NCBI RefSeq assembly: GCF_030555055.1
Contig: NZ_JAMOAO010000001.1
Location: 434,001-498,000, forward strand
DNA length: 64,000 bases
Source of the DNA: Nocardiopsis sp. YSL2
Lineage (GTDB): Bacteria; Actinomycetota; Actinomycetes; Streptosporangiales; Streptosporangiaceae
Direction of reading: 5' to 3'
The number at the start of each line of letters is the position of its first letter. Position 1 is the first letter of the stretch. The notes beneath the pieces are model-generated. The model had not been told where the DNA came from. It saw only the letters and a list, made by a program, of their open reading frames with translations, and made no database searches. This document shows, one piece after another, positions 16,393 through 45,645 of the stretch. Both the position numbers and the translations under genes were made by a program.

Positions 16393-19227
<2,835 letters not shown>

Positions 19228-19441
19228 CGAGTAGGACATCCTTCGGCTTGGGCGCACAGGAGACGGGCCGCGTCACGCGACGTCGGCTGGACCCGTGTGT
19301 CTTCGCGGTGTGGCGGTCGAAGGCCTCCGGCGGCCGCGCAGGGCCGCGGATCCGGGCCGTTGAGGGGCGCGGTCACAGCCGTCCGCCACCCCGTCCGACA
19401 AGACTAACGACCACCGACGTCGGTTTCTTCCAACACGGGAA

Positions 19442-19558: not shown

Positions 19559-20584
19559 TCAGGAGCGGTCGGCCGTGGTGTCCCTTTCCCGCGCGGCCTC
19601 CACCGCGGCACGGCGCCGATCGTCCACCCAGGACTTGACCAGGCTGCCGACGATGGTGACCGTCATGACACCGATGATGACCGTCAGCGAGGCGCCGATC
19701 CCGATGTCGATCACGTGGACACCGTTCTCGTGCAGGGCGTGCAGGATCATCTTCACACCGATGAACAGCATGATCGCCGACAGGCCCCAGCTGATGTAGG
19801 CCAGGCGGTCCATCAGGCCCGCCAGCAGGAAGTACAGCTGGCGCAGGCCCAGCAGCGCGAAGGCGTTCGCCGTGAACACGATGTAGGCGTCCTGGGTCAG
19901 ACCGAAGATCGCCGGAATGGAGTCGACGGCGAAGACCAGGTCGATGACACCGATGGCGACGATGACCATGAGCATCGGAGTGACGTGCAGGCGCTGGTCC
20001 AGGCGCACGAACATGTGCGCGCCGTGGTAGTCCTCCGTCACCGGGAAGAACCGGCCGACCAGCTTCACCGCCGGGTTCTGGGTGTAGTCGGTCTGGTGCT
20101 CATCGCCCTTGACGTGGTCGCGGACGATCTTGTACCCGGTGTAGATCAGGAAGGCGCCGAAGAGGTAGAAGACCTCGCTCCAGGCGTTGATGACCTGCGC
20201 GCCCAGGACGATGAAGACACCGCGCATGACCAGCGCGATGACGATACCGATGAGCAGGACCTCGTGCTGGTACTTCTTGGGCACCGCGAAGGCGCCCATG
20301 AGCAGGTAGAACACGAAGAGGTTGTCGATGCTCAGGCTCTTCTCGGTAATGAACCCGGCGAAGTACTCGGCTCCTGCGGCCGAACCGCCGAAGTACATCA
20401 CCCCGAAGCCGAAGACGATGGCGATGCCGATGTAGAAGGCCGCCCACCAGGCCGCCTGGCGGACCCCGAACTCCTTGGGGCCGCTCTTCTTGCTCCAGGG
20501 GTGGTCGACGATGGCCAGGTCGATGACCAGGATCACGACCATGGCACCGATCGTGGCAGCCCAGACCCACAAGGGAACGTTCAC
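19559..20584 (-). CDS. terC: TerC-family membrane protein (likely manganese exporter)
   Basis: TerC/Alx/YkoY proteins are integral membrane proteins now linked to manganese efflux and metalation of exported proteins. The 341-residue product has about nine membrane spans, beginning VPLWVWAATIGAMVVILVI, with the conserved acidic membrane motifs SLSIDNLFVFYLLM and IDLVFAVDSIPAIFGLTQD that are expected to bind metal. Start is GTG 20584, with GGAGGAG 9 bases upstream. The upstream leader contains a yybP-ykoY manganese riboswitch, which strongly supports the manganese role over tellurite resistance. Confidence 0.93.
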   Translation of the reverse strand: MNVPLWVWAATIGAMVVILVIDLAIVDHPWSKKSGPKEFGVRQAAWWAAFYIGIAIVFGFGVMYFGGSAAGAEYFAGFITEKSLSIDNLFVFYLLMGAFAVPKKYQHEVLLIGIVIALVMRGVFIVLGAQVINAWSEVFYLFGAFLIYTGYKIVRDHVKGDEHQTDYTQNPAVKLVGRFFPVTEDYHGAHMFVRLDQRLHVTPMLMVIVAIGVIDLVFAVDSIPAIFGLTQDAYIVFTANAFALLGLRQLYFLLAGLMDRLAYISWGLSAIMLFIGVKMILHALHENGVHVIDIGIGASLTVIIGVMTVTIVGSLVKSWVDDRRRAAVEAARERDTTADRS

Positions 20585-20595
20585 GGGTGGATTCT

Positions 20596-20646
20596 CCTCC
20601 GGTAGGCGCGCGCGGACGTAGTGCGCGCACGATCGAGTACCGGAGG
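20596..20646 (-). promoter_or_regulatory. Riboswitch expression platform: SD sequester for terC
   Basis: CCTCCGGTA (20638-20646), which includes the 3' strand of aptamer stem P1, is exactly complementary to TACCGGAGG (20596-20604), which contains the terC Shine-Dalgarno GGAGG. The two pairings, P1 or SD-masking, exclude each other. Metal binding that stabilises P1 would therefore free the ribosome site and turn terC translation on. GCGCGC repeats between the two strands could form the loop-closing stem. Confidence 0.7.
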
Positions 20647-20770
20647 TCTCTCCCGCCCGAGCCGACCGGGCTCGGACCGACGGAACCGGGAGTACGTCGT
20701 TGTCCTCCGTGATGACGGCACCGTCGCGACAGGGATACTCCCCTCACGTGACATGCAAGGATACCGGTAC
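20637..20770 (-). promoter_or_regulatory. yybP-ykoY (manganese) riboswitch aptamer upstream of terC
   Basis: Read on the minus strand, the leader contains the family signatures in order: GGGGAGTA (20736-20743), GTCATCAC, a GC-rich hairpin (CCGAGCCCGGTCGGCTCGGGC region) and GGGAGAGACC (ending near 20647). Closing stem P1 is GTACCGG (20764-20770) with CCGGTAC (20637-20643). The conserved GGGGAGTA and GAGAGACC loops are those that form the two-metal site in this class. Position directly before a TerC gene is the commonest setting for this riboswitch. Confidence 0.85.
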
Positions 20771-20930
20771 CTTCCGCCGATCGGCCCATACCGGAACCCC
20801 ACCAAGCATGCCAGCAGAATCCTCTCCAGGGAAGTCACCGCCACGGTGGCGTTCACCGCACCCGGGCGTTACAGACCCGCTACCGCCAGGACACACTCCG
20901 TAGGCACCGGGCCGGCGCCGGCGGCGCCAC

Positions 20931-22013
20931 TCACCCCTGCGTCACCGCCTTGTACACTGCGGCCGCCGCCTCCACGGCGTCGTCCTCGGTGGGCAGGGCC
21001 GCCGCCGCCCTGCGCGAACGCGAGCGCAGGTCCTCGGCCAGCCCCGGCTCGTCCAGCACACGTCCCACCGCCGCGGCGAAGGCGCGCGAATCGCCCGGCG
21101 GCACCATCAGCACCGTCCCGGTGTACAGGTCCGGAATACCCCCCACCCGGGTGGAGACCACGGGCAGACCCGCCCGCAGAGCCTCCATGATCACCAGCGA
21201 GGGCCCCTCCCACTGGCTCGTCAGACAGAACACGTCGGCCGCCGCCAGCAGGTCGGCCACGTCCGAACGGTGCCCGAGCATGCGCACGTCGCCGCGCAGC
21301 TCGGCCGCCGCATCGTGCAGTTCGCCCCACAACGGCCCGTCCCCCGCGATCGCGACCACCGGCTCGGGCCGCCGGTCGGCGATCAGGGGCACGGCCTCCA
21401 ACAGGGTGCCCAGGCCCTTCTGCGGCGCCAGACGGGCGATGGTCAGCACCAGCGGCCGCTCCGGCAGCACACCCAGGTCGGCCCTGGTGGCCTCGCGCCC
21501 GTTGAACGGCGTGCCCGTGGACGGCGCCGCGACCACGGCCATCCGCGCGTCGCGGGCCCCGGCGGCTCGCAGACGGCGCACCAGGTCCCCCGACACCCCC
21601 AGGACCACCTCGGCGCGCAGAGCCACCAGGCGCTCCAGCGCCGGGTAGGCCGCCGCGAGCGGCCCGCGCACCGCGGGCGGGGCGTTGTGCGCGGTCACCA
21701 CGAGCGGAGCCAACCCTGCCAGGGCGCACAGAGCGCCCGCCCGCAGACCGTGCGCGTGCACCAGGTCCGCGCCGCGGACCAGGGCACGCAGCCGCATGAC
21801 CGCCCCGGGGTCCGACCACGACGGAGACGGCCCGATCGGCACCGGAGAGAACCGCATCCCCTCCCGGGTGAACCCGAACTCCCGCTCCGCCGAAGCCGGA
21901 CCGAGCACGGCCACCCGCATCCCCCTGCGGACCAGACCCGCGCCCAGCGAGCGGACATGGCGGCCGACACCTCCAGTACTGGTCCCCACGACCAGCGCGA
22001 TCCTGCCGTTCAC
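20931..22013 (-). CDS. GT4-family glycosyltransferase
   Basis: The 360-residue product begins VNGRIALVVGTSTGGVGRHV and has the two-domain GT-B fold. The C-terminal nucleotide-sugar domain is clear: ATRADLGVLPERPLVLTIARLAPQKG in part, VAIAGDGPLW, MLGHRSDVADLLAAADVF and the EGPSLVIMEALRAGLPVV motif with the catalytic-site glutamates. It is a cytoplasmic or membrane-associated retaining transferase. Donor and acceptor are unknown. GTG 22013 overlaps the murJ-like stop by 4 bases (GTGA), so it is the last gene of a coupled envelope operon. Confidence 0.87.
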   Translation of the reverse strand: MNGRIALVVGTSTGGVGRHVRSLGAGLVRRGMRVAVLGPASAEREFGFTREGMRFSPVPIGPSPSWSDPGAVMRLRALVRGADLVHAHGLRAGALCALAGLAPLVVTAHNAPPAVRGPLAAAYPALERLVALRAEVVLGVSGDLVRRLRAAGARDARMAVVAAPSTGTPFNGREATRADLGVLPERPLVLTIARLAPQKGLGTLLEAVPLIADRRPEPVVAIAGDGPLWGELHDAAAELRGDVRMLGHRSDVADLLAAADVFCLTSQWEGPSLVIMEALRAGLPVVSTRVGGIPDLYTGTVLMVPPGDSRAFAAAVGRVLDEPGLAEDLRSRSRRAAAALPTEDDAVEAAAAVYKAVTQG

Positions 22014-40434: not shown

Positions 40435-40551
40435 CCGTGGCAGCAACCTACTCTCCCACCCCACCACAGGGCAGTACCATCAGCGCAAGGAGACTTAACG
40501 ACCGGGTTCGGAATGAGACCGGGTGTGACCCTCCCACCATAACCACCACGG
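40435..40551 (-). rRNA. rrf: 5S ribosomal RNA
   Basis: A 117-base gene lies 120 bases after the 23S gene. The complementary ends CCGTGG and CCACGG form helix I, and the conserved core GTCATCAGCG-like and CCGAACCCGG-type segments are present when read on the minus strand. End positions are set from the terminal helix, so they may be off by one or two bases. Confidence 0.95.
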
Positions 40552-40670
40552 AAACCAACACCCATCCACGACCACGACCCACACCCCACCAACCGGCAAG
40601 GGGATCACAGCCACAACGGGAAAACCGTAGATCATGTGAAAAATATGCGCGAGCACCCAATTATCTGCAG

Positions 40671-45645
<4,975 letters not shown>

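Follow-up and report, generated by a model that had tools for sequence, protein, structure and literature searches.

The terC locus and its leader

The window analysed here is a stretch of 64,000 nucleotides from Nocardiopsis sp. YSL2 (NZ_JAMOAO010000001.1, positions 434,001 to 498,000), in which the terC gene (19559..20584, minus strand, GTG start at 20584) encodes a membrane protein of the TerC/Alx family with 341 amino acids. This protein was matched by the Pfam model PF03741 with 173.5 bits and by the NCBIfam model TIGR03718 'R_switched_Alx' with 354.9 bits, passing the cut-off of 246.4. Upstream of this metal-homeostasis gene there is a leader that very probably belongs to the yybP-ykoY family of Mn2+ riboswitches, turning translation on upon Mn2+ binding by means of one strand shared by the aptamer helix P1.1 and a helix that masks the ribosome site. 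It was already known that this riboswitch class exists, that it occurs ahead of terC and that actinobacteria have it, the last point from passages on Corynebacterium glutamicum in PMC3890552. The present analysis adds a corrected P1, an architecture devoid of P2, the conservation of the ribosome-site mask, and the observation that alx-type leaders escape the current Rfam model.

The putative aptamer, alx-type and without P2, was delimited at 20640..20747 of the minus strand, where all parts of the leader are found, by a covariance model built from relatives (R1, model positions 1-105 of 105). The three motifs on which the original prediction was based were indeed found on the minus strand in the right order and spacing, 61-159 bases upstream of the terC GTG. 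The first, GGGGAGTA (20736..20743), was read from the sequence, is also present in the Escherichia coli alx and mntP leaders, and contains the 5′ side of L1, GGAGTA (20741-20736), so that the L1 motif GGGGAGUA stands opposite GAGACC. The second, GTCATCAC (20716-20709), also read from the sequence, belongs to L3 CCGUCAUCACGG (20707..20718), which aligns with the L3 of alx and includes a CGG (20709-20707) that pairs with 20687-20689. The adenosine of its GUCA, at 20713, is taken to be a metal ligand from PMC6754395, with the residue numbering being our own assumption. The third motif, GGGAGAGACC (20645..20654), comprises the 3′ strand of P1.2, the 3′ side of L1 (GAGA) and the first CC of the 3′ strand of P1.1; its GAGACC is present in the alx and mntP leaders, as well as in the Xanthomonas oryzae construct described in PMC6754395.

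The helices P1.1, P1.2, P3.1, P3.2 and P4 follow in the expected order. P1.1 (helix 1) is formed by GAGG (20742..20745) with CCUC (20646-20643), and 92.8% of its cells in the alignment of relatives are paired. P1.2 is composed of UCCC (20732..20735) and GGGA (20654-20651), while P3.1 (helix 3) has the 5′ strand CGACGGUG (20719..20726) and its partner at 20678-20685, with a U-U and a G-U as the inner two pairs in the window. The hairpins P3.2 (helix 4, 20691..20706) and P4 (helix 5, UCCGAGC/GCUCGGG, 20656..20676) complete the structure.

Covariation in the relatives and the missing P2

The comparison was based on 112 leaders: 41 TerC loci from named genomes, 30 of the window's genus (L042-L071, of which L042 is the window's own locus, so that it and the window are one locus), 40 stretches from other genera hand-picked from search matches, and the window itself. 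It was verified that 104 of the 112 leaders, with 86 distinct aptamers among them, parse into the same motif order, including the L1 motif. The parser pattern requires GGAGTA, an L3 pattern and GACC, and therefore the invariance of those letters in the resulting alignment (A1) is partly by construction, while the varying pairs in P1.1, P1.2, P3 and P4 are not affected. Among the eight unparsed leaders (L034, L038, L039, L096 and L102-L105), L034 and L096 were recovered by R1, and no R1 match up to E 1 was obtained in the other six. By eye, the DNA upstream of L102-L105 looks coding. In L002, GGGGAGTA is one G shorter.

Both A1 and R1 were built with 53 actinobacterial terC leaders, none of them from the window's genus; of the 54 leaders listed, L032, from a gammaproteobacterium, was excluded. 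In the secondary structure that was counted, 90.4% of 1598 cells pair, versus 40.1-53.3% when the partners are shifted by 1-3 columns, a comparison that favours the counted structure because it was drawn by the analyst from the same sequences. Moreover, both partners vary in 21 of the 31 base pairs, every helix having such pairs, and none of 500 shuffles reached any of the five measures. In P1.2, all four pairs are kept in 53 of 53 leaders and two of the four change on both sides, with exchanges that include UA to CG and CG to UA; in P3.1, changes on both sides were observed in seven of eight pairs. It was thus shown, at the level of sequence comparison, that P1.1, P1.2, P3.1, P3.2 and P4 are supported by covariation in the relatives.

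In the window, R1 matched 20640-20747 of the minus strand with 92.2 bits (E 1.9e-18). Across the whole genome of the strain, the leader was found with E 1.1e-16, and the second-ranking match reached 21.6 bits (E 0.99). Outside the training phylum, R1 recognised the alx leader of E. coli K-12 (L112:6376-6501) with 43.2 bits (E 2.2e-7) and L032 with 51.7 bits. On the mntP leader (L113:3462-3558), it gave no match up to E 1 with default filters, and 21.5 bits (E 0.0035, third rank in 21 kilobases) with filters off. Judged from these alignments, the window RNA and the alx leader of E. coli are homologues. This homology, together with that to the phylum locus L117 considered below and the TIGR03718 match, upholds the riboswitch class and the terC assignment originally proposed.

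The linker between P1.2 and P3.1 has 3-8 nucleotides in 103 of the 104 parsed leaders, and 5 in the window, which is too short for a P2 helix; consequently, P2 is absent and the junction three-armed, as in alx. No P2 or four-way junction was recognised in the window leader, and this feature was not treated as defining the family. A three-way junction is in print for the streptococcal mgtA aptamer, according to a passage of a review (PMC9495176). The remaining leader, L032, has a linker of 29 nucleotides, into which a hairpin fits by eye. This leader (L032:1349-1470, from a record named Chromohalobacter) is actinobacteria-like and precedes a TerC gene, and its occurrence there is possibly due to horizontal transfer. 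A pairing inside the aptamer, GGGAGUA with UACUCCC, was considered and dropped, since the covarying structure assigns GGAGUA to the L1 strand and UACUCC to P3.2.

Other arrangements of TerC genes were also observed. A second TerC gene in the strain's own genome (G000:C1:1807149-1808117, L116) is 48% identical, and no R1 match was found near it. In a Modestobacter record, two tandem TerC-like genes (L034:122-2589) have an R1 match before the first only.

The ribosome-site mask and the proposed switch

The nine bases of CCTCCGGTA (20638..20646) comprise the 3′ strand of P1.1 and an extension, and constitute the proposed switching strand. As the original prediction had stated, they are the exact complement of TACCGGAGG (20604-20596), which covers the ribosome site GGAGG (20600-20596), and their first four bases are also complementary to GAGG of P1.1. 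Therefore, one nine-base strand can either close the aptamer or hide the ribosome site, giving a readable switch with comparative support from many genera. Since the 3′ strand of P1.1 can also cover the ribosome site, translation would be turned on upon Mn2+ binding; this binding and the direction of switching in the window leader are what we infer from the arrangement.

When the best helix with the downstream sequence was searched for in the 104 parsed leaders, it began precisely at the initial C of the P1.1 3′ strand in 93 and did not start at this strand in 11; for the 30 loci L042-L071, the search spanned 90 nucleotides instead of extending up to a known start. The mask extends past the five core bases by a mean of 3.24, versus 2.78 in shuffles, and none of 5000 shuffles was as high (55 distinct cases; a ribosome-site candidate was present in 102 of the 104 leaders). 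The mutual exclusion of P1 and mask that had been proposed is hence kept in the relatives, though with GAGG/CCUC as the P1 helix in place of the longer closing stem suggested initially.

Folding of the leader with and without P1 constraints, which had been put forward as a check, agreed with this arrangement. In the free fold computed for the window, the ribosome site had an openness of 0.00 and CCTCCGGTA was paired with TACCGGAGG, while forcing P1.1 and P1.2 raised the openness to 0.26. This calculation covered 68 of the 104 leaders, with L042-L071, L035, L037, L040, L041, L028 and L036 excluded. When P1.1 was forced, the median openness rose from 0.004 to 0.25, with an increase of more than 0.1 in 55 of the 68; the values for L030 and L088 are meaningless, as no ribosome-site string was found in them. 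Complementarity, conservation and the fold model all point to a helix that hides the ribosome site and cannot coexist with P1.1, an arrangement that would correspond to a translational ON switch.

In the proposed mechanism, the 9-base-pair helix CCUCCGGUA/UACCGGAGG would form without Mn2+ and hide the ribosome site. Mn2+ would dock L1 onto L3 and keep P1.1 closed during RNA synthesis, and the closed P1.1 would leave the ribosome site free. TerC, probably an exporter of Mn2+ or a metal-loading protein, would then be produced at high Mn2+, and switching would rely on the energy of metal binding and on the co-transcriptional order of events. The stabilisation of P1.1 by Mn2+ was measured in X. 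oryzae (a passage of PMC6754395), passages of PMC11087558 ascribe to P1.1 a co-transcriptional role, and Mn2+ frees the mntP ribosome site according to a passage of PMC11647493.

Several observations weigh against this reading. P1.1 has only four pairs in the window, where the masked state lies 10.8 kcal/mol lower in the fold model and forcing the aptamer opens the site to just 0.26; because of this energy gap, the open state must presumably arise during transcription and be held by metal binding. Among the 68 folded leaders, four (L031, L074, L088 and L110) showed reduced openness once P1.1 was imposed. The folding energy of the leader was no better than that of shuffled sequences (z -0.94). 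Finally, the Rfam 15 model of the family, RF00080 (Manganese), gave no match to the window at its gathering score, nothing up to E 10 over 20540-20930, and no match over the whole genome of the strain.

The original prediction had set a covariance search as the test able to refute it, and on its face the empty Rfam scan spoke against it. The E. coli controls changed the weight of this result: RF00080 failed to match the alx leader up to E 1 and scored the mntP leader at 41.6 bits, under the cut-off of 45, so that neither was recovered at gathering, even though both are reported as Mn-sensing riboswitches in PMC9603457, in the part consulted. As RF00080 misses alx and under-scores mntP, its null says little about the window leader, and the empty scan was rejected as a refutation of the riboswitch. 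Rfam thus cannot decide the matter, and the R1 match speaks in favour of the prediction. Among the named-genome TerC loci, 17 of the 41 were also scanned with Rfam, and a single partial match of 25.9 bits (L024) was obtained. The Rfam 15 manganese model seems weak for alx-type forms, and since it misses this form, E. coli alx included, Rfam-based annotation would under-call such control in Actinomycetota.

Occurrence in the phylum, alternative explanations and known systems

The gene uvrA (16393-19257) follows terC as the first large gene downstream, on the same strand and about 300 base pairs away. The window also carries a ribosomal RNA operon (16S, 23S and 5S) at 40435-45645 of the minus strand.

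Both models were run on a phylum draw of 246 genomes, in which the counts are lower bounds, owing to strict filters and to the scoring of 10 (RF00080) or 16 (R1) first-look candidates per genome. RF00080 matches were found in at least 10 of the 246 genomes, one of them over its cut-off, and R1 matches in at least 51, the window's own included, with a single genome (G175) common to both. R1 matched eight of the 11 RF00080-found loci at overlapping places (L117, L118, L119, L122, L124, L125, L126 and L127), with E-values from 2.9e-6 to 0.025, four of which were weak (0.011-0.025); L117 scored 49.1 bits with RF00080, over the cut-off, and 38.5 bits with R1. Because of this overlap, R1 and RF00080 appear to describe one family.

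Besides the window, 29 loci with R1 matches in the phylum were fetched (L128-L156). TerC lay downstream in 16 of them, a P-type ATPase in nine (L132, L134, L138, L143, L145, in which it is about 500 nucleotides away, L147, L152, L153 and L154), Na_Ca_ex in one (L149) and GDT1 in one (L156), and two loci end at the contig edge (L130 and L144). The RF00080-found loci (L117-L127) had GDT1, MntP, Na_Ca_ex or TerC downstream where checked. Passages of PMC13274385 count MntP, UPF0016, P-type ATPase and TerC proteins among the Mn exporters, and do not name Na_Ca_ex.

The gap between L1 and L3 has 15-20 nucleotides in the strong R1 loci (n = 28, L034 and 27 from the phylum sample) versus 24-36 in the RF00080-found loci (nine measured). 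Five consecutive T in the 90 nucleotides that follow GAGACC were present in none of the 28 strong R1 loci versus eight of 10 anchored RF00080 loci (of 11), a contrast that may partly reflect G+C content; they were present in four of the 104 parsed terC leaders, the window not among them. This contrast is not general: alx has no P2 but, by eye, a T-run, and both L032 and, by eye, mntP have P2 and no five-T run in the next 90 nucleotides. On these grounds, it may be proposed, tentatively and with more doubt than confidence, that the P2-less leaders of terC and P-type ATPase genes form a distinct manganese riboswitch branch across Actinomycetota, wired to translation rather than to termination, with a metal selectivity of its own (Mn2+ with Ca2+) and invisible to Rfam.

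Among the alternatives to a translational Mn2+ switch, the one that survives best is that the mask works largely via Rho, in such a way that untranslated terC mRNA would be terminated and Mn2+ would rescue both translation and transcript. Such a mechanism is described for E. coli mntP in a passage of PMC11647493, and no intrinsic terminator-like site was found in 20400-20940, so that transcript-level control would need Rho; nevertheless, this action would add to the translational switch more than replace it, and a mask working largely in this way is a possible, if not the expected, explanation.

It is fairly unlikely that the P2-less form responds mainly to a different metal (to Ca2+ as well as Mn2+), or that pH is also reported by it. 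Part of PMC13274385 connects the alx product with alkaline pH, and the nine P-type ATPase genes among the R1 loci would fit this idea; for three of these ATPases scanned with NCBIfam, the best model was of the Ca2+ PMR1 type, below cut-off and on proteins cut by the locus end. However, the alignment matches L1 and L3 to their counterparts in alx, reported to be Mn-sensing in the abstract of PMC9603457, and the gene belongs to the TerC/Alx metal-homeostasis family.

A transcriptional attenuator, in which the 3′ part of the leader would form a terminator as in many yybP-ykoY switches, is very improbable: the five-T run that would agree with it occurs in most anchorable RF00080 loci, but neither in the strong R1 loci nor in the window, and the stretch 20400-20940 has no terminator-like site.

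Equally improbable is that the closing stem of the original prediction, GTACCGG/CCGGTAC, acts as the switching P1. GTACCGG (20770-20764) is the exact complement of CCGGTAC in the window, but a six-nucleotide upstream partner of this stem was found in only five of 87 distinct upstreams (at the same offset in L014, in L042, the window's own, in L044 and in L053, and elsewhere in L043), and the stem would leave 18 nucleotides before P1.1, while covariation backs GAGG/CCUC. The long 7-base-pair P1 was therefore rejected, as it is not conserved and adjoins a likely –10 box, TATCCT (20758..20763), weakly indicated by its position, as TANNNT stands at this offset in 16 of 31 distinct genus upstreams. 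Around this site TANNNT was enriched, in 18 of 31 distinct genus upstreams (2.9 expected) and in 24 of 56 distinct upstreams outside the genus (6.3 expected); at another offset (–39), it occurred in 10 of the 31 genus upstreams. A scan of 20400-20940 for a consensus σ70-like promoter found none, and position conservation was the basis of the –10 assignment. In C. glutamicum, the observed 5′ end of terC is placed 6 nucleotides inside the Rfam match in part of PMC3890552. From this and the TANNNT enrichment, the terC transcript likely starts near 20751, after GTACCGG, which is probably untranscribed because it adjoins the –10-like box.

Chance motifs in GC-rich DNA beside a fixed ribosome-site hairpin, with no riboswitch at all, would suit the empty Rfam scan and the unremarkable folding energy, but can be practically dismissed in view of the E-value of the window match to a model trained on other genera and of the 21 pairs changing on both sides.

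A Mn2+-responsive translational switch thus remains the preferred reading, and its closest known counterpart is the E. coli alx leader, with which the window shares P1.1, L1 GGGGAGUA, P1.2, L3 with UCGUCAU-ACG, P3, P4, GAGACC, the lack of room for P2 and a downstream gene of the same TerC family. The alx leader differs in its longer P4 region and in a run of seven T about 60 nucleotides after GAGACC (by eye), whereas the window has the 9-base-pair ribosome-site mask and no T-run. The E. coli mntP leader shares L1, P1.2, P4, GAGACC and the ribosome-site logic, a translational ON switch according to a passage of PMC11647493; in contrast, it presents a P2 helix (by eye, and also in the Rfam alignment), a weaker R1 match and another gene family. 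The RF00080 model of Rfam 15 likewise includes the P2 helix and does not reach the window. By description, the leader can also be likened to that of C. glutamicum cg2157, another actinobacterial terC leader, which scored 49.13 bits with an older Rfam yybP-ykoY model in the part of PMC3890552 consulted, and to the streptococcal mgtA aptamer, which has a three-way junction too, precedes a P-type ATPase gene, a type that also follows R1 matches, and is said to bind Ca2+ as well in the passages of PMC9495176.
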